Under the pieces are notes generated by a model. That model worked only from the letters and a program-made list of their open reading frames with translations, ran no database searches and had not been told where the DNA came from. Below, piece after piece: positions 5,891 through 22,156 of a stretch of 64,000 nucleotides of DNA. Both the position numbers and the translations under genes were made by a program. Source of the stretch: Thermodesulfovibrionia bacterium (GTDB lineage: Bacteria > Nitrospirota > Thermodesulfovibrionia > UBA6902). Position 1 is the stretch's first letter, and the number at the start of each line of letters is the position of its first letter. The stretch is taken from contig JAGVNU010000085.1 of assembly GCA_020053105.1 (NCBI GenBank), forward strand, positions 1 to 64,000. The letters run 5' to 3'.

Positions 5891-6052
5891 ATGACAAAGA
5901 AAAAACCATTTGTGGAGCCTGTACTGTTTAAGCACAAAGAGAAACTGGACGAAATAACAAAGTTTAATGGCTTCGGATCTCAAGGCACTGATACAAGTAC
6001 AAGCCGCAGGATTAGCAGGAAAAACGGAAGGTGTCCCCTTGGTTTTAAATAG
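5891..6052 (+). CDS. Candidate RiPP precursor peptide 1
   Basis: A 53-aa ORF read directly from the sequence. The N-terminal 24 residues look like a leader for a PqqD-type recognition element: Lys-Lys-Pro-Phe-x-x-Pro-x-Leu, then KEKLDEIT ending at Thr23, close to the lasso-leader pattern YxxPxL...LxxxT. The next part is Gly/Ser/Thr-rich (GFGSQGTDTSTS, residues 27-38), then Arg/Lys-rich with one Cys (C48). A GGGGAGG lies 14 nt before the ATG. Over residues 1-30 it matches the second peptide (6633) at 17 positions without a gap, including Gly29-Ser30, then diverges. A conserved leader with a variable core, next to PqqD/B2-type genes, argues for a precursor; the product type is unknown. Confidence 0.65.
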   Translation: MTKKKPFVEPVLFKHKEKLDEITKFNGFGSQGTDTSTSRRISRKNGRCPLGFK

Positions 6053-6133
6053 ATTTTAAAAGCAAATGAATGGTGTGCCGGAATCCTCTACTCAATCCAG
6101 CCTTACTGTCTCCCTGCTCAGACAATAAATAAT

Positions 6134-6162
6134 TTGACATGCTTCAGATTTTATGATAACTT
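6134..6162 (+). promoter_or_regulatory. Putative sigma-70 promoter before the PqqD-like gene
   Basis: A perfect TTGACA (6134-6139) is followed after 17 bp by TAACTT (6157-6162). It lies in the 204-bp gap between precursor 1 and the PqqD-like gene, about 95 bp before the GTG start. The -10 is weak (4 of 6), but the -35 and spacing are ideal. It would let the maturation genes be transcribed separately from precursor 1. Confidence 0.4.
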
Positions 6163-6256
6163 TTCTTTACACCTCTAGCGCAATGTACTAATCAGTCCAA
6201 ACGCATTTGTTCATATAATGGAGGGGAGAAGCTTAGATGAGGAGTTTTGAAAGTAA

Positions 6257-6553
6257 GTGAATATTATTAATGATCAATTGAAAACCTGGCGAAAGAATCC
6301 GTCGGTGGTGTGCACTGAACTGGATGAAGGAGCAGTGCTTTTAAACCTGGATACCAAGTATTATTTTAATTTGAATGAGACAGGATTAAGAATCTGGCAG
6401 ATCATGGAAGACTCCCTGAACTCCATGGAAATAGCAGAGAAACTGGCCGGCGAGTACGATGTTGATATGGAAAGAGCAAAGTCAAGCGTGGTCAGGCTGC
6501 TGGGAGAATTGGAGAAGGAAGAGTTGATTCTTTCCGCGGGGAATAGACGTTAA
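6257..6553 (+). CDS. PqqD-family peptide recognition protein (RRE)
   Basis: A 98-aa stand-alone PqqD-like domain. The features are typical: WRKNPSVVCTELDEGAVLLNLDTKYYFNLNETG followed by IWQIMEDS and a winged-helix tail (residues 55-95). In RiPP pathways such proteins (PqqD, lasso B1) bind the leader of the precursor and present it to the tailoring enzymes. The start is GTG at 6257, after a GAGGAG about 12 nt upstream; no ATG is in frame nearby. It lies between the two precursor-like ORFs, which supports a leader-binding role. Confidence 0.85.
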   Translation: MNIINDQLKTWRKNPSVVCTELDEGAVLLNLDTKYYFNLNETGLRIWQIMEDSLNSMEIAEKLAGEYDVDMERAKSSVVRLLGELEKEELILSAGNRR

Positions 6554-6562
6554 ATTATTAAT

Positions 6563-6579
6563 TGCTCGAGCGTTTCTTT
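6563..6579 (+). repeat. CTCGAG hairpin-like motif, copy 1
   Basis: TGCTCGAGCGTTTCTTT starts 10 bp after the PqqD-like gene. The core GCTCGAGC is palindromic and followed by a T-rich stretch. A fuller version occurs at 6854-6873, so the two copies bracket precursor 2. It may be a weak terminator or processing hairpin. Confidence 0.35.
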
Positions 6580-6632
6580 ATTGCTCAAAAAATGATACCC
6601 TTATAAAGGGAAGGAAAGAGGAGGTGAAGAGC

Positions 6633-6779
6633 ATGGCAGAAAAGAAACCATTTAAAGAACCTATTCTGATGAAGTACGAAGAGAAGCTTGACCAGGTAAC
6701 CAAGAATACTCAGTTGGGTTCTAATTGCGACATTAAACCGACCCGTACGAAAAGAAGGTCGCGTCGCTTCAGGCATTAA
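6633..6779 (+). CDS. Candidate RiPP precursor peptide 2
   Basis: A 48-aa ORF read directly from the sequence, with a strong AGAGGAGG site ending about 8 nt before the ATG. Its leader parallels precursor 1: KKPFKEPIL, then EEKLDQVT ending at Thr23, followed by Lys24 and Gly29-Ser30. The C-terminal 18 residues are different and extremely basic (nine Arg or Lys), with one Cys at residue 32. It lies 79 bp after the PqqD-like gene and 76 bp before the kinase-like gene. Strong ribosome binding, leader conservation and position suggest a highly translated substrate of the adjacent enzymes. It is not an obvious lasso core, having no Asp/Glu seven to nine residues after a Gly/Ala/Ser/Cys leader junction. 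Confidence 0.65.
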   Translation: MAEKKPFKEPILMKYEEKLDQVTKNTQLGSNCDIKPTRTKRRSRRFRH

Positions 6780-6853
6780 CTCTAAGGCATATGATACATC
6801 ACCCCTTTGGTGCAGAGCTGAGTAGATTGGTCGGGGTAAAAAGTGAGCTTAAG

Positions 6854-6873
6854 AAATGCTCGAGCATTTTTTT
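6854..6873 (+). terminator. Perfect 16-bp palindrome with T-run (possible attenuating terminator)
   Basis: AAATGCTCGAGCATTT (6854-6869) is a perfect palindrome followed directly by four more Ts, the layout of a short intrinsic terminator. The stem (AAATGC/GCATTT, TCGA loop) is weak, so partial read-through is likely. It overlaps the first in-frame ATG (6856) of the kinase-like gene. It could keep precursor 2 transcript levels above those of the enzymes. It may equally be an operator. Confidence 0.4.
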
Positions 6874-7893
6874 ACTACACCTGATTATGTATTTGCCTGC
6901 GGGGGGAGTGTATCAGTGATTAACAGTACACACACAATTCAGGGAGTGAGTATACGGCTTCGCTGTGATCATCGGCTGCATTTACGCATATCATATTATT
7001 TTAATTTCTATTATAAAGGGGAGACCCGCCGGTTAGTAAAACCAGTTCTCTATGAACTGTCCAGAGTAAAAAATCCCCCGACAATACCGGCAGACGCAGT
7101 CAGAGCGTTTAAGGCCCCGGATGTATCATGTTACATAAGCGGCAAAAGTATTTACTATACGTCGGAAGACGGCTCTGTTATGCACCTGGACCCTGTCTCA
7201 AGAAAAGTAAAGGGTTATCTCAGGGAGAAGGTCCTGGACAATACGAGAATACTATACTCTCTGGTAGGCGCGCCTTTTTCAGAAATTCTGAAATATAACT
7301 CACTGTATTCCCTTCACTCATCTGCTCTCTATCGCAACGGGGTGGGATACCTGTTTTCAGGAGACAGCGGAAGCGGAAAAACCACTACGGCGCTGGGTCT
7401 GGTTGCTCATGGCTTCAAATATGCCTCTGACGATGTTGTACTGCTTGAGGAAGTAAAAGGAGAAATAATTGCACATTCATTGACCAGTACGTTTAACGTA
7501 GACAGGATGCTGGGCGAACGCTTCCCCGGAATTGTAAAAGAGGAAAATCTTCCAGTTAAAGAGGGCGCCAAGGTAACTGTCAGCATAGAACGTATTGTCC
7601 CCGATTCTTTTATCCCTCACCTTAGACCGGACGTGATGGTATTTTTGAAGATTAATTCAGGCGGGAAAAGCCGCATTAATCCCCTTAGCCAGTTTGAAGT
7701 GTTCAACAGATTGCTTAAACAGACTTTACTGGCAGCAGATAAAGAAGTTTCACAAAATCAGATACAGACCATTGGAAAGCTGGTCAGGCAGGTCCGCGGA
7801 TTTGAGCTTCTGAGAGGAAAAGACATCTATGAAGACCCCGCATGTCTTGTCAGTCTTATGGCTGAAGCAGGTTGTCATTATGCGGACCATTAA
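6856..7893 (+). CDS. HPr-kinase-like ATPase of the RiPP-like cluster
   Basis: A 345-aa protein with an HPr kinase/phosphorylase-type catalytic fold. LHSSAL (about residue 153) precedes a Walker A GDSGSGKTT (169-177), and SDDVVLL follows at 191. The N-terminal 130 residues are a beta-rich region not found in true HprK. Homologues in lasso clusters phosphorylate a Ser of the precursor, so a precursor peptide is the likely substrate here. The start is uncertain: the ATG at 6856 lies within a palindrome and has a poor ribosome-binding site; GTG codons near 6910 are alternatives. It overlaps the B2-like gene by 14 nt. Confidence 0.8.
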   Translation: MLEHFFTTPDYVFACGGSVSVINSTHTIQGVSIRLRCDHRLHLRISYYFNFYYKGETRRLVKPVLYELSRVKNPPTIPADAVRAFKAPDVSCYISGKSIYYTSEDGSVMHLDPVSRKVKGYLREKVLDNTRILYSLVGAPFSEILKYNSLYSLHSSALYRNGVGYLFSGDSGSGKTTTALGLVAHGFKYASDDVVLLEEVKGEIIAHSLTSTFNVDRMLGERFPGIVKEENLPVKEGAKVTVSIERIVPDSFIPHLRPDVMVFLKINSGGKSRINPLSQFEVFNRLLKQTLLAADKEVSQNQIQTIGKLVRQVRGFELLRGKDIYEDPACLVSLMAEAGCHYADH

Positions 7894-8404
7894 GAAAATA
7901 CGGTCAAACTTTGATTCCCTGGAAGAAGTCGGGCTTTTTCTTCAAATATTTCTGCTCATAACAATTCTGCCTCTTTTAGTAAAACTTATGACAGTCCCCC
8001 AATTAATGAAAATACTTACGCCGCAGAAATCAAAATCAAACGGGAAATGGGACATTGATGAGATCAGAGATAAAATTGAAAAATACACTCTTTATATATT
8101 GAGCAGAGACTTTTGGATATACAAAAACATATGCCTTAAACGTTCACTGGTCCTTTACCATTTTTTAAGGAAATACGGGATGTATGTAACCGTATGTTTT
8201 GGTGTGCGATATAAAAATGAACGGTCCGGGAATGTAGAGGTAAAGAAAATGGAAGGCCATGCGTGGCTCACCTGCAACGGCGATATTTTCATGGAAAAAA
8301 ATGCGGAAGAGACTAAAACCTACAGAATGACCTATTGTTATCCGAAAAATGAAGATGATACGAAAGAAAAGGGTCTCATGCCCGATATAGAGGGATTGAT
8401 GTGA
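7880..8404 (+). CDS. Lasso-B2-like transglutaminase-fold leader peptidase
   Basis: A 174-aa protein of the lasso peptide biosynthesis B2 family, cysteine proteases that remove the leader from a precursor delivered by the PqqD-like B1 protein. The triad is visible: Cys85 in NICLKRSLVLYHFLRKYG, His127 in EGHAWL and Asp135 in CNGD. Residues 15-37 are hydrophobic, suggesting membrane association. I chose the ATG at 7880; an upstream in-frame start at 7829 would lie wholly within the kinase gene. The stop overlaps the GTG start of the nucleotidyltransferase gene. Confidence 0.85.
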   Translation: MRTIKKIRSNFDSLEEVGLFLQIFLLITILPLLVKLMTVPQLMKILTPQKSKSNGKWDIDEIRDKIEKYTLYILSRDFWIYKNICLKRSLVLYHFLRKYGMYVTVCFGVRYKNERSGNVEVKKMEGHAWLTCNGDIFMEKNAEETKTYRMTYCYPKNEDDTKEKGLMPDIEGLM

Positions 8405-9576
8405 ATCTGTCGAATGAAAACGCTCTGTTAATATTATGTGCCCGGCAAGGAAGTTACAGGGACAACCCGGAAAAGATCAATTCTCTTCTCGCTCTTCAGA
8501 TTAAGTGGGATGAACTTTTAAGCGCTGCTGTTTCTCAAGGTATTGCTCCTTTGGTTTATAAGAATCTGAAAGACATTCCGGAGAAGACTTCTGTTCCTGA
8601 CGAGGTGATAGGTAAGCTCAGAATAGTTTACCAGGGCAATGTTGCGAGGAATATGTATCTTTACTCTGAATTAGAGCGCATTTTACAGGCGTTTCATGAA
8701 GAAAAGATAGACGTAATAACGCTGAAAGGCGCGGCATTGGCAGGGACGGTGTACGGGGACATAGGTTTGAGGATCATGAGTGACATTGACCTTCTCGTCA
8801 GGCCGGAGTGTTTAGCGCGGGCAAAGGAGGTAATGTCTGATCTGGCCTATTTTGCAGGGGGGACCAAGACGGAGGGATGGTACAAAGAGAAACATTTTCA
8901 TCTTCCGCCTTTCATACATAAGGAAAAACAAATAATAGTAGAAATTCACTGGAACGTCGCCGGGGATTCGCTAGGCATTAATGTCGACAGATGGTGGGGA
9001 AGAGCGAGAAAAACAAGATTGGGCGAGGGGTGGGTACTCATCCCATCACCTGAAGATATGATACTTCATCTTTGCATCAGCCTTTATCATGGTAATTATA
9101 ACAAAGCGGCCTTAAGAGGACTTTGTGATATATTTTATACCATACGTTACTTTTCAGAAGAGACGGACTGGAAACTGTTTAGGGAGCTGATTGAACAAAG
9201 CAAAATTGCCAGGCCTGTTTATTCCATATTGTTTCTGGTCAGAAAATATTTTGACAGCAGTAATCAGGCTCTTTCCTGGCTTGACCATGTACATACAGAT
9301 ATTAAATTTACTGCCATGGCGGAGAAGATAATTTTCATTCCGGAGAATGAGTATTATTCCCTATTTATGAAGTCATTGGCTGCTGATACAAAGTGGGAAA
9401 AAACGAAAATCATTTTTGCTGATATTTTCCCTTCTCAGGAGAAGATGTCGAAACGATATTCAATACGGGCTGATTCCGCCAAAGTGTATATTTATTATGC
9501 CTATCGTCCCATTGAACTGACCGTAAAATACGGGAGGTCTTTGTTAAAGATGTTTTGCTTCAGAAATTCAACATAG
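8401..9576 (+). CDS. Nucleotidyltransferase-family protein (NTP_transf_5 type)
   Basis: A 391-aa protein with a minimal nucleotidyltransferase core: LKGAALAGTVYGD then MSDIDLLV, where Asp128 and Asp130 form the metal-binding DxD pair. This family is common in lasso clusters carrying a kinase (paeninodin type), where it may modify the phosphorylated peptide; its substrate is not established. The start is GTG at 8401 in a GTGA overlap with the B2-like gene, indicating coupling. The C-terminal half (residues 190-390) is helical with no motif I recognise. Confidence 0.8.
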   Translation: MNLSNENALLILCARQGSYRDNPEKINSLLALQIKWDELLSAAVSQGIAPLVYKNLKDIPEKTSVPDEVIGKLRIVYQGNVARNMYLYSELERILQAFHEEKIDVITLKGAALAGTVYGDIGLRIMSDIDLLVRPECLARAKEVMSDLAYFAGGTKTEGWYKEKHFHLPPFIHKEKQIIVEIHWNVAGDSLGINVDRWWGRARKTRLGEGWVLIPSPEDMILHLCISLYHGNYNKAALRGLCDIFYTIRYFSEETDWKLFRELIEQSKIARPVYSILFLVRKYFDSSNQALSWLDHVHTDIKFTAMAEKIIFIPENEYYSLFMKSLAADTKWEKTKIIFADIFPSQEKMSKRYSIRADSAKVYIYYAYRPIELTVKYGRSLLKMFCFRNST

Positions 9577-9586
9577 GGAGCTGCGG

Positions 9587-10591
9587 TTGTCATACGTTAT
9601 TGAGACAGTCAATCTATCAAAAAAGTATCCTGTACTTAAAGGATACCGGGACATTTTATTCCATCCATTCAGAAAGAAAGAGACCCCGGCCCTCAATAAT
9701 GTAACCATTCAGATAAATGAGGGAGATATATTCGGTCTGCTCGGTCCTAATGGCGCCGGCAAGACCACACTGATAAAAATTCTGTGTACCCTCGTTCTGC
9801 CCAGCGCAGGGAGCGCGTATGTGAAAGGGTATGACGTCACAAGGGATGAGAAGAGCATAAGAAAGCTGATAGGTTATGTGATAAGCGAGGAGAGGAGTTT
9901 TTACTGGAGGCTGTCAGGCAGGCAGAATCTGAAATTCTTTGCAAAGCTGAACAATATCCTGAACAGGGAGGCAGACCAACGGATTGAGAGACTGCTGGAA
10001 TTTCTGGACCTTGCTGCTGATGCCGGCAGAATGTTTAAAGATTATTCAACTGGCATGCGCCAAAAACTGGCGATAGCGAGGGGGCTTCTTACCGATCCGG
10101 CTATATTATTTATGGATGAACCGACAAACGGCCTGGACCCGGTCTCTGCCCATAATTTGAAACTGCTGGTAAAAGAAAAGCTGGTGGGAGAGAAAAAGAA
10201 AACAGTAATCTTCGCGACCCATAACCTGAGGGATGCAGAGGAGCTGTGTAACCACATTGCGATAATCCAGAACGGGGAGGTCAGGATCGAGGGGACATTA
10301 GAAGATATCAGATCTAAATTTAATGAATCGAAAAGATATGTGATGAAATTAAGAAATGTTGAAGGAGAGGTATTAGTAAAGATTCATAATAAGGCTTTGG
10401 TGAAAAGTATGATGTCTGTATCAAATGGATCATCAGGTTTTACAGAAATTGAATTCGAAATCGGACATAACAATGGCAGCCTGCAAGGGTTTGTTAAGGA
10501 AATCGTCGATATGGGCGGTGAATTGTTTTCTGTTTATGAGATTGAGCCTACTCTTGAAGATCTATTTTCAGAGATAGTGAAAGCGAAATGA
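9587..10591 (+). CDS. ABC transporter ATP-binding protein
   Basis: A 334-aa ABC-2-type ATPase. Walker A is GPNGAGKTT (about residues 54-62), the signature loop is YSTGMRQKLA and Walker B is ILFMDEPTNGLDP. A C-terminal extension of about 90 residues is typical of DrrA/NatA-like exporters. The start is TTG at 9587 with AGGGAG just upstream; no ATG fits the conserved N-terminus. It overlaps the permease gene by 4 nt. In context it probably exports the peptide product or gives self-immunity. Confidence 0.92.
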   Translation: MSYVIETVNLSKKYPVLKGYRDILFHPFRKKETPALNNVTIQINEGDIFGLLGPNGAGKTTLIKILCTLVLPSAGSAYVKGYDVTRDEKSIRKLIGYVISEERSFYWRLSGRQNLKFFAKLNNILNREADQRIERLLEFLDLAADAGRMFKDYSTGMRQKLAIARGLLTDPAILFMDEPTNGLDPVSAHNLKLLVKEKLVGEKKKTVIFATHNLRDAEELCNHIAIIQNGEVRIEGTLEDIRSKFNESKRYVMKLRNVEGEVLVKIHNKALVKSMMSVSNGSSGFTEIEFEIGHNNGSLQGFVKEIVDMGGELFSVYEIEPTLEDLFSEIVKAK

Positions 10592-11412
10592 GACCTGTAT
10601 CACTTATATTTGAAAAACCGCTCGCTTTTTTATGGAGAGACATTATAGAAGATACCAGCTATAAGCTGTCATTTTTCATGCAGTTCGTCAGTATCTTTGT
10701 TTCAACCTCTATGTTTTACTTTTTCTCAAGGCTCCTGGGCGATGCAGGGATTTCCTATCTTAAGCCATACGGAGGGAATTACTTCTCTTTTGTTCTTATC
10801 GGCATCGCGTTTTACAGCTATCTCAGTGTATCCATACAGAGCCTCTCGGAAACTATTCGTGAGGGACAAATGCTGGGGACACTGGAAGCGCTGCTCGTAA
10901 CTCAGACGGAGATCCCGACTATCATTATATCTTCATCCCTGTATAGTTTTATCTGGGCGTCTTTTAAGGTGGCAGTGTACCTGTTATTGGGAGGTTATGT
11001 GTTTGGAGTCAATCTCGGCAATGCCAATCTTATCGGGGCAACTATTGTTCTCATGCTCACTATCATTTCCTTTGGCAGTCTGGGAATAATTTCAGCGAGT
11101 TTTGTCATGGTCCTGAAGAGAGGTGACCCTGTTAACTGGATATTTTCAAGTGTTTCTGGATTAATAGGCGGTTTGTACTACCCGGTTTCAGTGCTTCCCG
11201 ACTGGCTGCAAAAACTGTCTTATCTCCTGCCTGTCACCTATGCACTGGAAGGTATGAGAATGGCAGTGCTGAAAGGGTATTCTGTCAGTGAACTGCTCCC
11301 CAATATTTTGGCATTAACGCTTTTCTCAATTATTATGCTGCCGCTGAGCATCCTGGTTTTTAAATACGCTGTTAGGAAAGCAAAAAGAGACGGGACACTG
11401 ACGCAGTATTAA
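10588..11412 (+). CDS. ABC-2 type transporter permease
   Basis: A 274-aa membrane protein with about six hydrophobic spans and the ABC-2 permease pattern, including GLYYPVSVLPDWLQKLSYLLP near the C-terminus (the loop before the last spans). It starts in an ATGA overlap with the ATPase gene and completes a one-ATPase, one-permease exporter. It is the last gene of the RiPP-like operon; a 189-bp gap separates it from cas3. Confidence 0.9.
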   Translation: MRPVSLIFEKPLAFLWRDIIEDTSYKLSFFMQFVSIFVSTSMFYFFSRLLGDAGISYLKPYGGNYFSFVLIGIAFYSYLSVSIQSLSETIREGQMLGTLEALLVTQTEIPTIIISSSLYSFIWASFKVAVYLLLGGYVFGVNLGNANLIGATIVLMLTIISFGSLGIISASFVMVLKRGDPVNWIFSSVSGLIGGLYYPVSVLPDWLQKLSYLLPVTYALEGMRMAVLKGYSVSELLPNILALTLFSIIMLPLSILVFKYAVRKAKRDGTLTQY

Positions 11413-11601: not shown

Positions 11602-14370
11602 TTGCAATCATTTTACAGCTACTGGGGGAAGGCGGAGAAAGATGGTGCGGGGTATCATCTTTTGCCGTATCATTGTCTGGATGTGGCGGGGGTGGGACAT
11701 GTGATGCTTTCACAGCGCAATGACTTACGAAAACGCTTTGCTGCAATCTCCGGGCTTGATGAGACGGTTTGCTGTCAATGGATAGCGCTTTTTCTTGGAC
11801 TACACGATATCGGCAAATTCTCAGAGAACTTTCAGAATCTGCGGCCTGACCTGCTGGAGAAACTGCAAGGGAAGAAATCCGGCAAGGCTTATTCCGTACG
11901 TCATGACAGTCTTGGAAATCTGCTATGGATCGAATCTCTTTGGCGGTCATTTGAAGCCTCAGCCTCTGCCAGTGTGCCTGATTTTAGGAATGTCGCTGAA
12001 TACTGGCAGGAACTCTTTCAATATATTGCAAATGCATTTACCGGTCATCATGGACAACCCCCAAGGAGAACAGGTCCCAACGATCTTCAGTTAAGACTCT
12101 CAACATTCTTCACAACTGAGGAAATAAACTACGCATCACAATATATGCATGATCTTCAAGTTGTTCTAAACAAAGAGGTTGGAATTATTCTTCAATTGCC
12201 CTCACCAATAAATATCTATGATTCTAATTCTATGCCGATTGCTTCCTGGCTCATGGCCGGATTTGCTGTGCTTTGTGACTGGATCGGATCAAACAGTCAA
12301 TGGTTCCAATTTTGTGAAAGCGTTATGCCGCTTGACGAATATTGGCGCAACCACGCCATTCCTCAAGCGACATGTGCTATACGCGAAGCGGGCATTAATG
12401 CCGCAAGTCCAAAAGCAACTGATAGTCTATTTGCAGATGTATTTCCCGATATTAGTGAACCTACGCCATTACAAAGACATGTAATCGAATGTCCGATTGT
12501 TGATTCTCCGCAGCTATTCATCCTTGAAGATGTTACAGGTTCCGGCAAGACTGAGGCGGCATTATTTCTGGCTAAACGTCTTATGACGCATGGCCTTGGG
12601 AATGGTATATTTATGGCCCTACCAACAATGGCGACTTCAAATGCGATGTACGATCGTGTTACTAAAGTGTACCGCAAACTTTTCACTGACGAGTCTACTC
12701 CTTCTCTTGTGTTGGCTCATGGAGCGAGACACCTTTCGGATACCTTTATGCGCTCTATTGCAGATCCCTCGAATACACAGAAACAGTATGGAACCGACGA
12801 GGACACAGCTTCTGCTCAGTGCGCTTCTTGGCTGTCTGATAATCGAAAGAAGGCGCTGCTTGCTGATGCAGGAGTCGGAACACTCGATCAGGCTCTTTTG
12901 GCAATCCTGCCTTCCCGCTTTCAGTCATTACGTCTTTTGGGTTTGGCCGGTCATATTCTTATTGTCGATGAGGTACATGCATACGACCCGTATATGAACA
13001 AGCTTCTTCAAACCCTCCTATCTTTTCATGCGGCGATGGGTGGAAGCGCAATTCTTCTCTCAGCGACATTGCCGAATCATGTGCGTCAAGAATTTATTTC
13101 CAGCTTTAACGGAGGGATGGACATGTTTGAATCTATTCGTGTTGAGTCTGCTGCTTATCCGCTGGCAACTCATTTGTCGCGTAATGAGAGTATTGCAGAA
13201 GTCCCTGTAGACGCAACCCCGCAACGAATAACGAGCGTAGACGTGAAAATTATAACTGACTCTGAAGATGCAGAACGAATGGTCATCTCGGCTGCCGGGC
13301 AAGGGAAATGCGTCTGTTGGATTCGGAACACCGTGCATGACGCGATAGCCGGATTTGAAAGTCTTCGGGAAAAGGTAGCTTCAGACAATCTCATGATTTT
13401 TCATGCCCGCTTTGCAATGGGTGATCGGTTAGATATAGAAACCATGGTTAAAGACTGCTTCGGGAGAAAAAGCAAAGAAAAGGACCGGAGCGGAAAAATA
13501 CTGATAGCTACACAAGTTGTCGAACAATCCCTTGATCTTGATTTTGACCTGCTTATCTCAGACCTGGCGCCAATGGACTTGCTGATCCAGCGTGCCGGGA
13601 GGCTCCATCGACATACGAGAGACGAACAGGGTAATCCATTGCCATATGGCTCTGGAAATGATCGACGTGAGCTTCCTTGTTTCATCATTCACGGCCCATT
13701 GCCGGAAGACGATGCAGATGCGAACTGGTATAAAACGATGTTTCCCAAAGCTGCAACTGTATATCCAAGCCACGGTTGCCTGTGGCTTACTGCGCGCCTC
13801 CTGAAAGAAAAGGGTGTACTGCGTATGCCTGATGATGCTCGGGAACTTATTGAGGCGGCCTTTGGTAAAGCGGCTGCAAGTATACCTTCTGCCCTTCAGA
13901 AGAGGGATGACGAGGCGTTCGCGAAAAGAAGTCAAGATAGATCGCTTGCCCATATCAATATGCTGAAACTCGAAGAAGGCTATGTGGCAACACCTAATCA
14001 ATGGCTTGAGGATATGCGGACACCTACGAGGCTTGGCGATACGGAAAGCACGGTGCGTCTTGCCCGATGGGACGGCAGGGCACTGACCCCGTGGTATCCC
14101 CATTCAGACTTTCCGTGGGATATGAGCCAGGTATATCTTCGCAGCTTTTTTGTTCATAGCGAAGCCAACCATACTGATCCTGAGCTTCGGGCAGCAGTAG
14201 AGAAACTGAAAGAGATATTACCCGACAAAGGGAAATGGAGTGTCCTCGTTCCACTATCAAAGAGTGATGACGGGGTTTGGCGTGGAGAGGCCCAAAACAA
14301 GAAAGGTGACGCCGTTACTATTACTTATGATCCGTTAATCGGCGTCACCGTCGGCAAAGAGGAGGCATAA
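11602..14370 (+). CDS. cas3: CRISPR-associated nuclease-helicase Cas3 (type I-E)
   Basis: Cas3 is recruited by Cascade after R-loop formation and degrades target DNA. The 922 aa hold an N-terminal HD nuclease (His24 region; His68-Asp69 in LGLHDIGKF; GHHG near residue 152) and an SF2 helicase. Helicase motifs are TGSGKT (312-317), DEVH (456-459), LSATLP, and QRAGRLHRH from 663. All key motifs are intact. The start is TTG at 11602 behind AAAAAGGGG. It directly abuts cse1 at 14371, so the effector genes form one operon. Confidence 0.96.
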   Translation: MQSFYSYWGKAEKDGAGYHLLPYHCLDVAGVGHVMLSQRNDLRKRFAAISGLDETVCCQWIALFLGLHDIGKFSENFQNLRPDLLEKLQGKKSGKAYSVRHDSLGNLLWIESLWRSFEASASASVPDFRNVAEYWQELFQYIANAFTGHHGQPPRRTGPNDLQLRLSTFFTTEEINYASQYMHDLQVVLNKEVGIILQLPSPINIYDSNSMPIASWLMAGFAVLCDWIGSNSQWFQFCESVMPLDEYWRNHAIPQATCAIREAGINAASPKATDSLFADVFPDISEPTPLQRHVIECPIVDSPQLFILEDVTGSGKTEAALFLAKRLMTHGLGNGIFMALPTMATSNAMYDRVTKVYRKLFTDESTPSLVLAHGARHLSDTFMRSIADPSNTQKQYGTDEDTASAQCASWLSDNRKKALLADAGVGTLDQALLAILPSRFQSLRLLGLAGHILIVDEVHAYDPYMNKLLQTLLSFHAAMGGSAILLSATLPNHVRQEFISSFNGGMDMFESIRVESAAYPLATHLSRNESIAEVPVDATPQRITSVDVKIITDSEDAERMVISAAGQGKCVCWIRNTVHDAIAGFESLREKVASDNLMIFHARFAMGDRLDIETMVKDCFGRKSKEKDRSGKILIATQVVEQSLDLDFDLLISDLAPMDLLIQRAGRLHRHTRDEQGNPLPYGSGNDRRELPCFIIHGPLPEDDADANWYKTMFPKAATVYPSHGCLWLTARLLKEKGVLRMPDDARELIEAAFGKAAASIPSALQKRDDEAFAKRSQDRSLAHINMLKLEEGYVATPNQWLEDMRTPTRLGDTESTVRLARWDGRALTPWYPHSDFPWDMSQVYLRSFFVHSEANHTDPELRAAVEKLKEILPDKGKWSVLVPLSKSDDGVWRGEAQNKKGDAVTITYDPLIGVTVGKEEA

Positions 14371-16038
14371 ATGCAGTTCAACTTGATTGATGAAGAATGG
14401 ATTCCGGTTAAACGGCGAGATGGCACAGAAACAAGAATCACACCGTGGCAAGTCACCGACGGGTTTGCAGAAAACCCTATTGTATCACTCAATGCGCCGC
14501 GTCCTGACTTTAACGGCGCGCTTATTCAATTTCTGATAGGGTTGGTTCAGACAACCTTTGCGCCTGCAAACAGGATTGAATGGAAGCATAAGTTGAGAAC
14601 ACCGCCATCTACAGATCAACTGAAAACGGCATTCATGACGGTTCATAATGCCTTTGAACTTGGAGGAGATGGGCCGAGGTTTATGCAGGACCACGAGGAT
14701 TTCAAGCAGACGTCTAAGCCGATTGATTGGCTTCTCATCGGCGCAGCTACAAAGAACACGATAGCTGAAAACATAGACCATTTCATCAAACGATCCATGG
14801 TCTCTAATATGTGTCCATCATGCTGTACAATGGCATTACTGACAATGCAAACAAATGCGCCCGGCGGCGGTCAGGGATATCGCACATCTCTCAGGGGCGG
14901 TGGTCCGTTAACAACGCTTATCATTGGGGACAAGAATTTCGACACCCTGTGGCATACAATGTGGTTGAATGTTCTGGAATCAAAAATATTCCTGACTTTC
15001 TGCAACTCGAAACGGAGTTCAGATTCAAATAAGTTCCCATGGTTAGCGAAAACTAAAACCAGCGTTACGGAGCAGGATATTCATCCTGCACAATACTTTT
15101 GGGCTATGCCTAGACGCATTAGACTGGGCCTGGAGAAATCCGAAAGCGGGCTTTGTGATGTTTGTGCACTACCGAGCAATTCGCTGATTACAGCATGCAA
15201 AGAAGTAAATAAAGGGACAGAGTATAGATCACCCATGAAGCATCCGTTATCACCATTTGATACAAGGATAAAGAAAAATCAGAAAGAAGAGGCAGCGCGA
15301 AATAAAGCCTTGTTGACGCAATCAGGGGGGGTAAGCTATAGGCACTGGCTGGGAATTGTTGTCAACGATACGGATGGACGCATTGAGCCGGCAAGAATTG
15401 TTCATGAGTTTATCGAGCGGCAGCAAAGCGACTGGCAATTCCGCCTCTGGGCATTTGGGTATGACTTTGTCCCTGGTCAAAGTAAAGCCCGGTGCTGGTA
15501 CGATTCAAAGATTCCACTCATAACGGTAGAGCATGAACATATATCTGATTATGAAAATAAAATCGCAACTCTGATCAAAGCGGCAAATATAATATGTGGC
15601 AACCTAAAGATTGCAATAAAAAAAGTATTACATGGGATACCGGAATATGACGCAATAACCAGACAAATAAAATGGAAATATCAAGATATCAAGAGGCTTG
15701 ATGCTGATGATGAAATGGCGCGAGAAAGAGTTCTGACTTCCGTTAGAACTATATCGGCGTTCACGGCTATTGAAGCGAGTTTCTGGCAGACGACGGAAGC
15801 GTTTTTTTATTCAGTTTTACTCAACTTGAGTCATTGCATTAGAGATAATAAGGGTGGCTCGGAATTCTTCGAGCAGTGGCAGCATGCACTTTGTACAGAA
15901 GCTTTAAAACAATTCGATTCCTATATTCTGAGTGCACCGATTGAGGATATGAAAATTAAACATGTGGCGCTCGCTCAAAAGGAGCTTAATAATTTCAATA
16001 GAGGAACAAGGGTCCGAAAGATACTTGGGCTGTCATGA
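14371..16038 (+). CDS. cse1: Cascade large subunit Cse1/Cas8e (CasA)
   Basis: Cse1 recognises the PAM and recruits Cas3. The N-terminus FNLIDEEWIPV followed by NAPRPDFNGALIQFLIGLVQ is typical of type I-E CasA. The protein is 555 aa, somewhat longer than the E. coli protein (502). Two CxxC pairs (C148/C151 and C262/C265) could form a zinc site. A C-terminal four-helix bundle is expected from about residue 390. It starts immediately after the cas3 stop. Confidence 0.94.
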   Translation: MQFNLIDEEWIPVKRRDGTETRITPWQVTDGFAENPIVSLNAPRPDFNGALIQFLIGLVQTTFAPANRIEWKHKLRTPPSTDQLKTAFMTVHNAFELGGDGPRFMQDHEDFKQTSKPIDWLLIGAATKNTIAENIDHFIKRSMVSNMCPSCCTMALLTMQTNAPGGGQGYRTSLRGGGPLTTLIIGDKNFDTLWHTMWLNVLESKIFLTFCNSKRSSDSNKFPWLAKTKTSVTEQDIHPAQYFWAMPRRIRLGLEKSESGLCDVCALPSNSLITACKEVNKGTEYRSPMKHPLSPFDTRIKKNQKEEAARNKALLTQSGGVSYRHWLGIVVNDTDGRIEPARIVHEFIERQQSDWQFRLWAFGYDFVPGQSKARCWYDSKIPLITVEHEHISDYENKIATLIKAANIICGNLKIAIKKVLHGIPEYDAITRQIKWKYQDIKRLDADDEMARERVLTSVRTISAFTAIEASFWQTTEAFFYSVLLNLSHCIRDNKGGSEFFEQWQHALCTEALKQFDSYILSAPIEDMKIKHVALAQKELNNFNRGTRVRKILGLS

Positions 16039-16060
16039 ATACAAAGATTTTGGAGGTCTT

Positions 16061-16564
16061 ATGGGCAATGAATATTTGAGTTTCAAGAAGGATTCAACGG
16101 AAGTTCAGAAGTTAATTGACTGGTGGGATGACCTGGAAAAGAACTATCGCGGTGAAAGGGCCGTTCTGCGACGATGCAGCACTCTCAATGAGGTGGTTTT
16201 ATCTCCAGCATATCATCGTCTGCGAATGGCGTTGCTTAATATCGGCAGGGTCTACGATAATCAGCTATCACTGGTAGTCGGTTTAACTGTACGTGTTAAA
16301 ACTAATGCAGATGAATCCGGGATTGCCGGGCAAATGGCAACCGGCAAGACAGACGGCTCAGCCAGAGTAAGCGGGCTTCGTTTCCGAAGGCTGCTCAAGG
16401 TGAAGGAACGTGACGAACTTTTTACTGCTATGAGTCGGATTATCGCACTCCTCGGCAGAGCGGTAAACATCCAAAGCTTAGCTCAGAGCGTCTATTTCTG
16501 GAACGATAGAACACGAAAAGACTGGGCGTTTGAATATTACTCAAAAGCCCCTGATGAAAAATAA
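16061..16564 (+). CDS. cse2: Cascade small subunit Cse2 (CasB)
   Basis: A 167-aa all-helical protein; two copies in Cascade stabilise the R-loop. WWDDLEKNYRGERAVLRRC near the N-terminus and the later RFRRLLKVKERDELFTAMSR are Cse2-like. I chose the ATG at 16061, with TGGAGGT 5 nt upstream; the frame is open back into cse1, but that extension has no Cse2 character. Confidence 0.92.
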   Translation: MGNEYLSFKKDSTEVQKLIDWWDDLEKNYRGERAVLRRCSTLNEVVLSPAYHRLRMALLNIGRVYDNQLSLVVGLTVRVKTNADESGIAGQMATGKTDGSARVSGLRFRRLLKVKERDELFTAMSRIIALLGRAVNIQSLAQSVYFWNDRTRKDWAFEYYSKAPDEK

Positions 16565-16600
16565 ATCAAACAACTTAAATTTGAAAGGAGACTCAAAGCA

Positions 16601-17668
16601 ATGAGCACATTTATTCAACTGCATTTACTTACATCCTATCCGCCGTCTAATCTTAACCGGGATGACCTCGGTCGTCCCAAGACTGCTGTTGTCGGAGGTA
16701 GAACTCGTCTCCGTATTTCATCCCAAAGTCTAAAGCGGGCATGGCGGACTTCAGAGTTGTTTAAGGCTGCTGTTGGTGATCATATGGGTAAGAACACTAA
16801 GAGAATGGGGTTTAACGCAGCTAAGGATTTTGAAAAGGCCGGGGTAGCTCCGAAAGACGCTATCGCTTGGGGCAAAAAGATAGCGGATGAGTTTGCAGAG
16901 ACTGAAGGCAAAGACAAAAGTGATCCCTATAAAGAGACGCTTCTGAAGCAACCGATTCATTTGTCGCATATTGAATACAAAAAGCTGCAGGAGCTTGTTG
17001 CCCGGCTGTGTAAAGAAAAGAGAGCACCCAATGATGATGAGTTAGAGTTCCTGAGTAAAGAACATAATTCCGTTGACATTGCAATGTTTGGGAGGATGCT
17101 TGCCGTAAAAGGGAAGATGGACTTGGGCATGGAGGGTGCCGTGCAAGTTGCCCATGCATTCACTGTTCATGAGGTAGCGGTAGAGGACGATTATTTTACC
17201 GCTGTAGATGATTTAAATGAGGGACCCGACGCCGCCCACATCGGAGAGACCGAGTTCGCTTCTGGTGTTTTTTACCTTTATGTCTGCATCAATCGTGATT
17301 TACTGGTAGAAAATCTGAAAAAGAAAGACCCTGAAAAAGCAGAGGCTCTCGCCAATAAGACACTCGAAGCCCTTGTAGAGGCAGCGACAAAGATTGCGCC
17401 GACCGGCAAACAAAACAGCTTTGGCTCCCGTGCCCGTACCTCATACATGTTGGTGGAAAAAGGAAGCGATCAGCCTCGCGCTCTTGCTGTAGCATTTCTA
17501 AAGCCTGTGAAAGGAGAAGACATTCTTAGCACGGCTATTAGCGAACTGGAAAAACGTCGTGACAACTTCGACAAGGTCTACGGGCACTGTTACGATGAGT
17601 TCAAGGCATTGAACGCCGAGACAGGCGTAGGCAGCTTAATCGATATCATTAACTTCGTAAAGGAGTGA
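16601..17668 (+). CDS. cas7: Cascade backbone Cas7e (CasC)
   Basis: Six copies of this RRM-fold protein coat the crRNA spacer. The opening FIQLHLLTSYPPSNLNRDDLG and SQSLKRAWRTSELF are diagnostic of type I-E Cas7 (Cse4/CasC). At 355 aa it has the usual length. It has a GAAAGGAG ribosome-binding site and lies 36 bp after cse2, the largest gap between Cascade genes, which would suit separate strong translation of the most abundant subunit. Confidence 0.95.
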   Translation: MSTFIQLHLLTSYPPSNLNRDDLGRPKTAVVGGRTRLRISSQSLKRAWRTSELFKAAVGDHMGKNTKRMGFNAAKDFEKAGVAPKDAIAWGKKIADEFAETEGKDKSDPYKETLLKQPIHLSHIEYKKLQELVARLCKEKRAPNDDELEFLSKEHNSVDIAMFGRMLAVKGKMDLGMEGAVQVAHAFTVHEVAVEDDYFTAVDDLNEGPDAAHIGETEFASGVFYLYVCINRDLLVENLKKKDPEKAEALANKTLEALVEAATKIAPTGKQNSFGSRARTSYMLVEKGSDQPRALAVAFLKPVKGEDILSTAISELEKRRDNFDKVYGHCYDEFKALNAETGVGSLIDIINFVKE

Positions 17669-17672
17669 AGCC

Positions 17673-18410
17673 ATGCGCGACTATCTTATTTTTAAACTCT
17701 ATGGCCCACTAGCATCGTGGGGTGATATCGCCGTAGGTGAATACCGGCCCAGCTTCGCCCATCCCAGCAAGTCAGCCATAATCGGTTTGCTTGCTGCTGC
17801 CCTAGGCATTCGGCGCGACGAGGATGAACGGCAAAAAGAACTGACCGATGCGTGTTCTTTTGCTGTGCGTGTGGATGCTATGGGTACACTGTTGCGGGAC
17901 TATCATACTGCACAGGTGCCGTCTGAAAAGAAAGGGGTTACCCGTTATACACGTTATTCAGAACTGGCAAATGAAAATTTGAACACAATCCTCTCCACCA
18001 GAGATTACCGCTGTGATGCCGCCTACACTGTGGCAATCACCGTTCGTGATGGAGCAAAGTATACCGCACAGGCGCTGGCTGATAAACTGAAGAAGCCGGA
18101 ATTTTCTCTATATCTTGGCCGTAAGTCTTGTCCATTGGCATTCCCACTTCAGCCAAAGGTTATCCCCAGTGCGGCAACTCTTAAAGAAGCGCTTGCGAGT
18201 GTGTCATTTAACAATGAAGAACTGCCCGACGTCATCACCAATTCTCCATACTTAATTTATTGGGATGACAACATAGAAAGCGGCTTTGAGCAAGAACACG
18301 TCATTACTCGTCGTGATACGCCGCTATCGCGTATCCGTTGGCAGTTTAATGAGCGGCGTGAGCATTATTGCTCTGTAAAAAAGGAGGACAAAACATGTTC
18401 TTCAGTATGA
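17673..18410 (+). CDS. cas5: Cascade subunit Cas5e (CasD)
   Basis: Cas5e caps the 5' handle of the crRNA. The N-terminus YLIFKLYGPLASWGDIAVGEYRP is typical, as is the HPSKSAIIGLLAAALGIRR stretch, where the family glycine/lysine region sits. It has 245 aa, starts 4 nt after cas7 and overlaps cas6e by 16 nt. Confidence 0.94.
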   Translation: MRDYLIFKLYGPLASWGDIAVGEYRPSFAHPSKSAIIGLLAAALGIRRDEDERQKELTDACSFAVRVDAMGTLLRDYHTAQVPSEKKGVTRYTRYSELANENLNTILSTRDYRCDAAYTVAITVRDGAKYTAQALADKLKKPEFSLYLGRKSCPLAFPLQPKVIPSAATLKEALASVSFNNEELPDVITNSPYLIYWDDNIESGFEQEHVITRRDTPLSRIRWQFNERREHYCSVKKEDKTCSSV

Positions 18411-19159
18411 TTCGACTGCGGAAGAATGTTTCACCAAGAGATATTGCATCTCTTGGTGGTGGGGAGGAATACCGATTACACAAATTGATATGGGATCTTT
18501 TCAGTGATGGACCCAATCGCAAGCGGGATTTTCTTTACCGCAACGAAATAATAAACGGCTTACCCACATTCTATACCATTTCAGAACGTGAGCCGAACTG
18601 TGTCGGTAATTTATGGGATGTCCTAGTAAAAAAATACGCGCCAAGACTTGTACAAGGAGAACGCCTGTCCTTCAAGCTCAGGGCAAATCCTGTTCAACCG
18701 GCAAAGAAAGAAAGAACCGACTCTGAAATTAAAGAATGGCTTAGAAGTCGTGAAGCGCGAGGGCTTAAAGAAAAAGAACCCACGAAAAAAAGGATTCGTC
18801 ATGATGTGGTGATGGAGGAAAAGAGCAGGATCGGCTTCAAGGAATTAACACATGACCAGCGGCCTCATACAGCGGAGCTTATTCAGAAAGCTGGTTTAAC
18901 GTGGCTAAAAGCGAAAGAAAAAGAATTCGGATTTTTTGTGGAAGATGAAGAGAACAAGACTGCTGTAAGAGTGGATGGCTACATACAGCACAGATTGTTC
19001 AGAGGCAGGGGACAAAAGCCGATGACATTCAACACTCTTGATTTCAACGGCATTCTTACTGTTACTGAACCTGAGACGTTCGTCAATAAATGTCTCTTCA
19101 ACGGCATCGGCCCCGCCAAAGCCTTCGGCTGCGGCCTCATGCTGGTGAGGCGGGTATGA
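18395..19159 (+). CDS. cas6e: crRNA-processing endoribonuclease Cas6e (CasE)
   Basis: Cas6e cuts the pre-crRNA at the base of each repeat hairpin and stays on the 3' handle. The catalytic His is likely His29 in EEYRLHKLIWDLF, and the glycine-rich loop is GIGPAKAFGCGLML at the C-terminus. I chose the ATG at 18395 (254 aa), behind AAGGAGG inside the end of cas5. It is longer than E. coli Cas6e (199 aa), with a charged insert around residues 110-150. Its stop overlaps a 37-codon ORF (ATGA). Confidence 0.93.
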   Translation: MFFSMIRLRKNVSPRDIASLGGGEEYRLHKLIWDLFSDGPNRKRDFLYRNEIINGLPTFYTISEREPNCVGNLWDVLVKKYAPRLVQGERLSFKLRANPVQPAKKERTDSEIKEWLRSREARGLKEKEPTKKRIRHDVVMEEKSRIGFKELTHDQRPHTAELIQKAGLTWLKAKEKEFGFFVEDEENKTAVRVDGYIQHRLFRGRGQKPMTFNTLDFNGILTVTEPETFVNKCLFNGIGPAKAFGCGLMLVRRV

Positions 19160-19269
19160 AAGTGTTGAGGTCGAATTATCAACATGCTGATGCTGATTTT
19201 GATCATACAAATTTATTGGAGCAGTTGAAAAAAGACTTTCATGTAGCTACAATTGGAGTTATAATATAA
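19156..19269 (+). CDS. Unrecognised 37-aa ORF between cas6e and brnT
   Basis: The ATG at 19156 overlaps the cas6e stop (ATGA), and its TAA is directly followed by the brnT ATG at 19270, so the ORF exactly fills the space between two genes. The peptide is acidic/His-rich at first, then HTNLLEQLKKDFHVATIGVII, an amphipathic helix plus a hydrophobic strand, and looks protein-like. I do not recognise it. It may be a real small protein coupled to cas6e, or the remnant of a gene lost when the toxin-antitoxin pair arrived. Confidence 0.4.
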   Translation: MKVLRSNYQHADADFDHTNLLEQLKKDFHVATIGVII

Positions 19270-19572
19270 ATGAAATTTGAATGGGACAATGACAAGAACA
19301 GACAAAACATAAGGAAACACGGGTTTGATTTAGCAGATGCGCAATTGCTTTTTACCGGCAAGATGCCTTTTTTAGTAGGTCTCGATATTCAGGGCGTCTA
19401 TGGGGAAGATAGATGGAAAGGCATCGGGGTATTGGAGGGGGTTCTGGTTGTTGTTGTGGTGTTTACTGAACGTGGGGAGGACACCATAAGAATTATTTCT
19501 TTGCGAAAAGCAAACTCAAAGGAGAGGAAGGCGTATGAAGAAGAAATCAAAAACAGATTGGGCACGGGTTAA
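19270..19572 (+). CDS. brnT: BrnT-family toxin (type II toxin-antitoxin)
   Basis: A 100-aa BrnT/DUF497 protein, a RelE-fold ribonuclease that blocks translation. The start FEWDNDKNRQNIRKHGFDLADA is the family signature, and the C-terminal IRIISLRKANSKERKAYEEE contains the conserved Arg and Glu residues. Unusually it lies inside the cas operon. It overlaps the antitoxin gene by 38 nt, the usual toxin-first order of Brn modules. The middle is slightly atypical, with a run of hydrophobic residues (LEGVLVVVVVFTE). Confidence 0.88.
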   Translation: MKFEWDNDKNRQNIRKHGFDLADAQLLFTGKMPFLVGLDIQGVYGEDRWKGIGVLEGVLVVVVVFTERGEDTIRIISLRKANSKERKAYEEEIKNRLGTG

Positions 19573-19783
19573 GGCCATAAAGGACAAGGAGATTGATTAT
19601 TCCGACATTCCGCAACTTGACAAGGAATTTTTTAAGAAGGCTATCCTCTGGCCCGGCACAAAAAAGCAGATAACGCTCCGTCTTGATCCTGACGTTATAG
19701 ACTTCTTCAAGAAGCAGGGACGTGGGTATCAAACGACAATCAATACTGTTTTGCGCAAATATGTTGAAGCACATAGTCACTGA
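19535..19783 (+). CDS. brnA: BrnA-family antitoxin
   Basis: An 82-aa BrnA-like protein that should neutralise BrnT and bind its own promoter as a ribbon-helix-helix dimer. The DNA-binding part is KKQITLRLDPDVIDFFKKQGRGYQTTINTVLRKYV (residues 43-77). The start ATG at 19535 follows GGAGAGGAAG. The N-terminal part (DYSDIPQLDKEFF) matches the toxin-binding region of the family. cas1 starts 31 bp later. Confidence 0.88.
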   Translation: MKKKSKTDWARVKAIKDKEIDYSDIPQLDKEFFKKAILWPGTKKQITLRLDPDVIDFFKKQGRGYQTTINTVLRKYVEAHSH

Positions 19784-19814
19784 AACATACAATTAACAGG
19801 TTTAGGATTAGACC

Positions 19815-21027
<1,213 letters not shown>

Positions 21028-21090: not shown

Positions 21091-22156
21091 ATGTTCCCCA
21101 CGTACGTGGGGATGAACCGCTGTCTGATAAGACGATAAAAGATATTCTCAGATGTTCCCCACGTACGTGGGGATGAACCGGGTAAACCATATCCCAAGGC
21201 CCGCTTGAATGAATGTTCCCCACGTACGTGGGGATGAACCGTATATTGATTATATCTTTAGCGGGGGACATTAATGTTCCCCACGTACGTGGGGATGAAC
21301 CGGAGAAATAAATTATGGCATGGCCCTATTCTAAATGTTCCCCACGTACGTGGGGATGAACCGTCATTGATTTATTTATATTCTTCAATTTGATTATGTT
21401 CCCCACGTACGTGGGGATGAACCGGCGGGCTTGGCTGACTTAAAATCTGATAAACCATGTTCCCCACGTACGTGGGGATGAACCGTTGAGAATGTATGGA
21501 TACGGCGAAGTGCTACAATGTTCCCCACGTACGTGGGGATGAACCGGAGAAATTATGACAGTAAAAGATTTAATTTTAATGTTCCCCACGTACGTGGGGA
21601 TGAACCGACTGCCGGGGGAGGGCGTAAAATGAAACAGGCATGTTCCCCACGTACGTGGGGATGAACCGGCTTCATTTTTTGTTTTTCTGAGATTCTCCAA
21701 ATGTTCCCCACGTACGTGGGGATGAACCGGGCATATCCCCTGGCATCTCCGTTGACATATAATGTTCCCCACGTACGTGGGGATGAACCGGCGGATGACC
21801 CGGAGACCGTAGCTATTAGAAAATGTTCCCCACGTACGTGGGGATGAACCGGAGGCTTTATGCCTGATGATTGTTTAGATGACATGTTCCCCACGTACGT
21901 GGGGATGAACCGACATTGACGGGAAGCAGGACACTTTTACCTTTATGTTCCCCACGTACGTGGGGATGAACCGAATAGGGAGCATGCTTTTGAATTTATA
22001 GAAAAATGTTCCCCACGTACGTGGGGATGAACCGCAGCCGGAGCGGGGTCTGTGGTCAGTATAAATATGTTCCCCACGTACGTGGGGATGAACCGCTGCT
22101 TGAACTGTACGTATCTCCGAAACGACAATGTTCCCCACGTACGTGGGGATGAACCA
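21091..22156 (+). CRISPR. Type I-E CRISPR array: 18 repeats, 17 spacers
   Basis: Eighteen 29-bp repeats start every 61 bp from 21091 to 22128, so all 17 spacers are exactly 32 nt. Each repeat begins ATGTTCCCC, has the core CCCCACGTACGTGGGG and ends ATGAACCG. The core is a perfect 16-bp palindrome giving a 6-bp stem and GUAC loop for Cas6e. Only the last repeat differs, ending in A rather than G, which marks the old (trailer) end. Newest spacers are therefore near cas2. The transcribed strand should be plus, as in other type I-E loci with this repeat orientation. Confidence 0.98.

Follow-up and report, generated by a model that had tools for sequence, protein, structure and literature searches.

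A putative cyclase-free, lasso-related RiPP operon with an HprK-like kinase in the Nitrospirota

The window analysed here, a stretch of 64,000 nucleotides from a Thermodesulfovibrionia bacterium, carries an operon that joins lasso-type processing enzymes to a kinase, and it raises the question of what such an operon would make when nothing in it closes the lasso ring. We think it rather likely that this is a cyclase-free, lasso-related RiPP operon working like those with which Bacillota make linear polyphosphorylated peptides (LPPs), known from lppAKBSDN of Paenibacillus alginolyticus (PMC13381572, 2026). By analogy, its product is probably a phosphorylated, exported peptide, and probably a linear one because the operon lacks a ring-closing enzyme.

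The operon and its precursor genes

The tight arrangement of PqqD-like, B2, kinase, nucleotidyltransferase and ABC exporter genes given in a preliminary description is confirmed by domain searches and by re-reading the sequence: all eight genes are in place, on one strand, between 5891 and 11412 (Table 1). By our reading of the ORFs, etfBA lies upstream and type I-E cas genes lie downstream. A promoter scan gave matches not above chance. A possible attenuator hairpin (AAATGCTCGAGCATTTTTTT, at about 6853) in the gap between P2 and the kinase gene is not claimed, because it is missing from the results of a terminator scan and its stem carries a mismatch in the related locus L004. The type I-E CRISPR-Cas genes follow immediately after the operon (11602-20738 of the window), a repeat array is suggested by ORF translation at about 21700-21850, and a Cas3-like gene (L066, 9727-12366) also stands behind the orthologous operon of L066.

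Table 1. Genes of the operon, in window coordinates
Feature	Position	Strand	Properties
P1, predicted precursor peptide 1	5891..6052	+	53 aa; leader KKPFVEPVLFKHKEKLDEITK; core ends in CPLGFK
PqqD-like RiPP recognition element (RRE; lasso B1-like)	6257..6553	+	PF05402, 60 bits
P2, predicted precursor peptide 2	6633..6779	+	48 aa; leader type as in P1; Arg/Lys-rich core
HprK-like kinase	6916..7893	+	PF07475, 34.9 bits; probable start GTG 6916, frame open from 6856
Lasso-type B2 cysteine leader peptidase (Transglut_core3)	7880..8404	+	NF033537, 52 bits
NTP_transf_5 nucleotidyltransferase (PsmN/LppN-like)	8401..9576	+	PF14907, 196 bits
ABC exporter ATPase	9587..10591	+	PF00005; DrrA-like, E=1.4e-75
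ABC-2 exporter permease	10588..11412	+	PF01061, 56 bits

The enzymes appear intact at their predicted active sites. The kinase (PF07475, HPr kinase C-terminal domain, cut-off 33.3 bits) matches solved HPr kinases weakly and keeps the P-loop GDSGSGKT, a His and SDD across 20 homologues; its probable start is marked by a stretch shared with the L004 homologue (VISSTHTIQG/VINSTHTIQG). We do not count it as a member of HPr-rel-A (TIGR04352), because its match to HprK_rel_A, at 37 bits, is far below the cut-off of 200. In the B2 peptidase (NF033537 cut-off 33 bits), whose start at ATG 7880 agrees with L004, Cys85, His127 and Glu139 are invariant among 17 homologues, as are the KG, R and DxD motifs of the NTP_transf_5 enzyme among 19. 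The PqqD-like protein reaches 58.8 bits against the lasso PqqD model NF033536, under its cut-off of 80, and its best solved relative is TbiB1, a lasso RRE (E=1.8e-9).

RiPP precursors typically combine a conserved leader with a variable core, and the two short ORFs, put forward earlier as the probable substrates, fit this picture. Shine-Dalgarno sequences precede both, GGGGAGG before P1 and AGGAGGTG before P2, the latter placing the start of P2 at ATG 6633 and not at GTG 6624. Their leaders align with a local score of 98, while 20,000 shuffles reach at most 49, and both ORFs recur in the same order behind the same etfA in a Nitrospirae MAG (L004, JACRQA010000052, a contig evidently identical to G459:C2, locus L065). 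Between the window and L004, the first 25 codons, which form the P1 leader, differ by 12 synonymous and no nonsynonymous changes, and the P1 core by 14 nonsynonymous and five synonymous changes; P2 shows four synonymous and eight nonsynonymous differences in its leader, and five and 11, respectively, in its core. These codon counts point to purifying selection on the P1 leader beside a variable core and, together with the orthologues in related clusters, show that both short ORFs are genes.

The leader type is also found beyond this pair. The kinases of six loci form one monophyletic clade (support 100/98), and the expectation that the leader would recur in related clusters was borne out, with FxxPxL precursors in all six genomes of that clade, including the same operon in G458 (L066), G378 (L038), G334 (L040) and G454 (L067). 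P1 has orthologues in L004/L065, L066 and L038 and a P1-like ORF in L040, and P2 has one orthologue so far (L004, 7777-7923), in which LGSNC[DE][IV]KP is conserved. The source genome holds no further copies of P1 besides P2. Features conserved in the inner clade are FxxPxL, EKLD/ERLD, TK at the leader/core junction and LGS, to which P1 adds a C-terminal [RK]CPLG[FY][KR]. LGS is present in six of six P1 and P2 sequences of the inner clade, its Ser seven to eight residues past the leader Thr, and is missing from the sister subclade of G334 and G454; the sole ORF found in G334 has a Ser-free core. No NCBIfam model covers these precursors, and the nearest to the lasso leader model is the precursor on contig C93 of the source genome alone, at 15 bits against a cut-off of 19. 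Each predicted core has a single Cys (in CPLGFK of P1 and GSNC of P2), the same being true in L004, and a disulphide pair between P1 and P2 is conceivable.

Absence of a ring-closing enzyme

Neither the operon nor its flanks contain an Asn_synthase-like gene. A PF00733 search of the source genome, which is 83% complete, found one full-length Asn_synthase protein, encoded on another contig; it scores 459.7 bits as a glutamine-hydrolysing asparagine synthase (cut-off 267) and 226.8 bits as a lasso cyclase (cut-off 525), and its neighbours are MsbA-like, glycosyltransferase and O-antigen ligase-like genes. We therefore rejected this sole candidate for a cyclase in trans (L001/L084) as an ordinary AsnB within a glycosyltransferase locus. 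No lasso cyclase was detected in the source genome, an absence that alone is not decisive because the genome is only 83% complete. The genome G334, however, is 99% complete and carries the operon without a full-length Asn_synthase anywhere, its two matches being short (65-67 positions). Other genomes of the kinase clade have Asn_synthase genes on contigs other than that of the operon. The earlier statement that the cyclase is missing thus holds both for the source genome at its present completeness and beside the homologous operons.

Across the phylum, Asn_synthase is absent from the fetched stretch in 27 of the 28 kinase clusters checked. The exception, L041, has one that lies upstream of its PqqD gene at a distance of about 4 kb, with ORFs of about 400 aa alongside. 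Apparent 'AsnB' neighbours in L056, L071 and L075 were set aside: as we read these sequences, they are PurF, next to PurL. A contrast case is G362 (L070), where Asn_synthase is part of the cluster and B2 and PqqD are matched weakly. This region (L070:8210-16000) includes Asn_synthase, ABC, B2-like, PqqD-like, radical SAM-like and NTase-like genes; one of its ORFs, of 28 aa, ends in seven tyrosines preceded by AATV (MKNYEKPIFMKHKAIESAATVYYYYYYY).

A proposed pathway and its alternatives

The closest experimentally studied parallel is the LPP system. LPP clusters of Bacillota encode an RRE, an HprK-like kinase, an NTP transferase and an exporter, and lack a cyclase; they have been reported as restricted to Bacillota, with the leader processed by a signal-peptidase-like enzyme (SpI-like, cleaving after T-1). 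LppK places several phosphates onto core Ser3, a modification abolished by S3A, the product is described as linear by the authors, and deletion of lppN has no visible effect (all PMC13381572). The window operon shares with these clusters a discrete RRE, an HprK-like kinase and an NTP transferase in one cluster, the absence of a macrolactam cyclase, an ABC exporter, and short precursors (one to three in LPP) with a lasso-like leader, YxxPx in LPP. It differs in that LPP clusters have an SpI-like (SipW-type) peptidase, whereas the window operon has none and a B2 cysteine peptidase instead, and in that the LPP exporter is MsbA-like whereas here an ABC ATPase and an ABC-2 permease are encoded by two genes. 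The leader motif YxxPxVLxHQxIxFETxxS of LPP is likewise not found, the window leaders reading FxxPxL..K..EKLDxxTK with a Pro-to-Thr spacing of 13, one residue more than the 12 of LPP. The leader YxxPxLxKHELLRDITA of the Nitrospira type (as we call the phylum's large family f29), which also has a spacing of 12 as against 13 in the window clade, comes closer to the LPP motif. LPP was described for Bacillota and this system lies in the Nitrospirota. Lacking the SpI peptidase, the MsbA-like exporter and the YxxPxVLxHQ motif, the window system is classed as working like LPP and not as a member.

The lasso peptides themselves share with the window operon the B2 cysteine leader peptidase and the discrete PqqD-like RRE (B1), the latter here scoring under the lasso-PqqD cut-offs, but they depend on an Asn-synthetase-like macrolactam cyclase that the operon lacks. 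Nearest among them are the paeninodin-like peptides and pseudomycoidin, which have in common with the window operon an RRE (B1), B2, an HprK-like kinase, NTP_transf_5, an ABC exporter and a lasso-like leader in which a Thr close to the cleavage site is conserved. The window operon differs from them in that it lacks a cyclase, its precursors do not end in Ser (the last residue is K or R in P1 and H in P2), the leader has FxxP as against WxxP, and the cores are without the canonical ring start. In pseudomycoidin, the C-terminal Ser is phosphorylated by PsmK, and attachment of one or two hexoses to the phospho-Ser requires PsmN (PMC9266682).

On this basis we propose a pathway in which the PqqD-like RRE would bind the P1 and P2 leaders at their FxxPxL motif and the HprK-like kinase would phosphorylate the core, most likely at the Ser of the conserved LGS just past the leader. 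In LPP the (poly)phosphate likewise sits on a core Ser, and the LGS Ser of the six inner-clade precursors appears to be the best candidate site; the target may differ elsewhere, or not be universal, because G334 and G454 have no LGS. The B2 cysteine peptidase would cut close to the Thr-Lys pair where leader and core meet. The exact site is uncertain, because LPPs are cut after T-1 whereas lasso leaders have Thr as their penultimate residue. The NTP_transf_5 enzyme may then add a sugar or a nucleotide to the phosphate, and the two-part ABC transporter would export the linear, basic peptides. The order of these steps is as conjectural as each biochemical step and the biological role. Of the preliminary description's linear, phosphorylated and possibly nucleotidylated peptide, the first two properties agree with the experimentally studied LPPs; nucleotidylation is the weaker part, given the hexoses linked to PsmN and the silent lppN deletion.

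Other readings have to be weighed against this pathway. The peptide might simply be cleaved and exported, for example as a signal, with the kinase and the NTase acting on some other substrate, which would fit the lack of a phosphorylatable residue conserved in all subclades and the accessory status of the operon within its class, where only six of 231 genomes have a B2 homologue; we consider this unlikely, as the kinase of the LPP model system acts on the precursor core and the kinase gene adjoins the precursor gene in most Nitrospira-type clusters. It is quite improbable that the kinase or the NTase replaces the cyclase, activating a side-chain or C-terminal carboxylate as an acyl phosphate or acyl-AMP that leads to a ring or cross-link. 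The conserved KG...R...DxD site of the NTase, the retention of B2/RRE machinery where the cyclase is absent, and the conserved C-terminus of P1, which something may recognise, speak for such a role, but pseudomycoidin has the same two enzymes beside a cyclase, acting on its C-terminal Ser, and LPP products are linear.

The product might also be a true lasso peptide, or another macrolactam, closed in trans by a cyclase from a different locus; in favour of this are the incompleteness of the source genome, its one full-length Asn_synthase on another contig and an acidic residue near position 9 of the P2 core. Yet that candidate scores and is placed as an asparagine synthase of a glycosyltransferase locus, a full-length Asn_synthase is missing from the nearly complete G334 although it carries the operon, and the cores lack the starting Gly usual in lasso peptides, which leaves this reading very improbable. 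That the operon is a decaying lasso cluster which has lost its cyclase in this lineage is hardly credible: the cyclase is indeed missing, but the remaining genes are all intact with conserved catalytic residues, the codon changes in the P1 leader are exclusively synonymous, and the cyclase is equally absent from five more genomes in the clade and from the majority of the phylum's clusters.

The cyclase-free, LPP-like reading that we prefer is less novel than the preliminary description suggested, because cyclase-less kinase RiPP clusters were published in 2026 as LPPs (PMC13381572); the differences here lie in the B2 peptidase, the ABC-2 exporter (in the window clade), the FxxP leader and the phylum itself. 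Searches confined to open literature found no description of this variant among Nitrospira lasso-like RiPPs and HprK RiPPs, and a phrase search for cyclase-less lasso clusters found nothing. If the reading is correct, cyclase-free phosphopeptide RiPPs would be no speciality of Bacillota tied to signal peptidase, but would also occur alongside the lasso B2 peptidase in a distant phylum, some of whose members live in groundwater. B2/RRE processing would then be separable from lasso ring formation, searches that currently require a cyclase could be widened, and many natural precursor/kinase pairs would be at hand for working out the kinase target and the NTase reaction.

Relatives across the phylum

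Of 396 genomes sampled from the phylum, 65 gave a kinase match (E<=1e-10). Among the 29 distinct kinase clusters fetched, 26 contain one or more short ORFs with a lasso-like leader, many reading YxxPxLxKHELLRDITAxRSG. The same pattern scan on the opposite strand gave eight chance-like ORFs, so single weak precursor hits should not be over-read. The precursor families with YVQP...LRDITA and with FxxP...LDxxT are nonetheless clear-cut. Four architectures occur among the clusters: the window type, the Nitrospira type with its fused ABC exporter, a radical SAM type with FFGxFxP precursors, also found on contig C93 of the source genome, and a RimK-like ATP-grasp type. The fused exporter, with PF00664, was seen in two Nitrospira-type clusters scanned. 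There is a fair chance, slightly less than even, that the cyclase-free RiPPs of the Nitrospirota make up a class that spans the phylum and has diversified independently. Its constant core would be an HprK-like kinase and an RRE, the exchanged module would be B2 with an ABC-2 exporter (window clade), B2 with a fused ABC exporter (Nitrospira type), radical SAM or RimK-like ATP-grasp, and the 'lasso' machinery would represent a single branch of a broader family of kinase-based peptides.

Several individual clusters deserve mention. On contig C93 (L007:6063-11252), the source genome has a second cyclase-free cluster, with HprK-like kinase, GNAT-like, radical SAM, PqqD, B2 and NTase genes and a precursor ending in KITAGFFGGFSPSA; FFGxFxP-type precursors occur with radical SAM again in L039, L043 and L050. 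PqqD-HprK clusters in L054 (6487-10356) and L055 (6066-10338) are preceded by two proteins of about 310 aa, the second of which has a RimK-like ATP-grasp domain in L054, and with precursors such as ELYSQPILLAHSALKNFTAKQYPEK they may represent a kinase/ATP-grasp hybrid RiPP. In L057 (8333-8551), a 72-aa ORF between the kinase and the NTase has a Tat-like SRREFLK start (MSEEGKQTSRREFLKKTIRTTGYVLP...) and is unlike the other precursors; a UDP-glucose dehydrogenase family gene lies nearby. A third, lone PqqD-like protein of the source genome is encoded near the end of contig C25 (L083:7542-7850), behind a cupin-like ORF.
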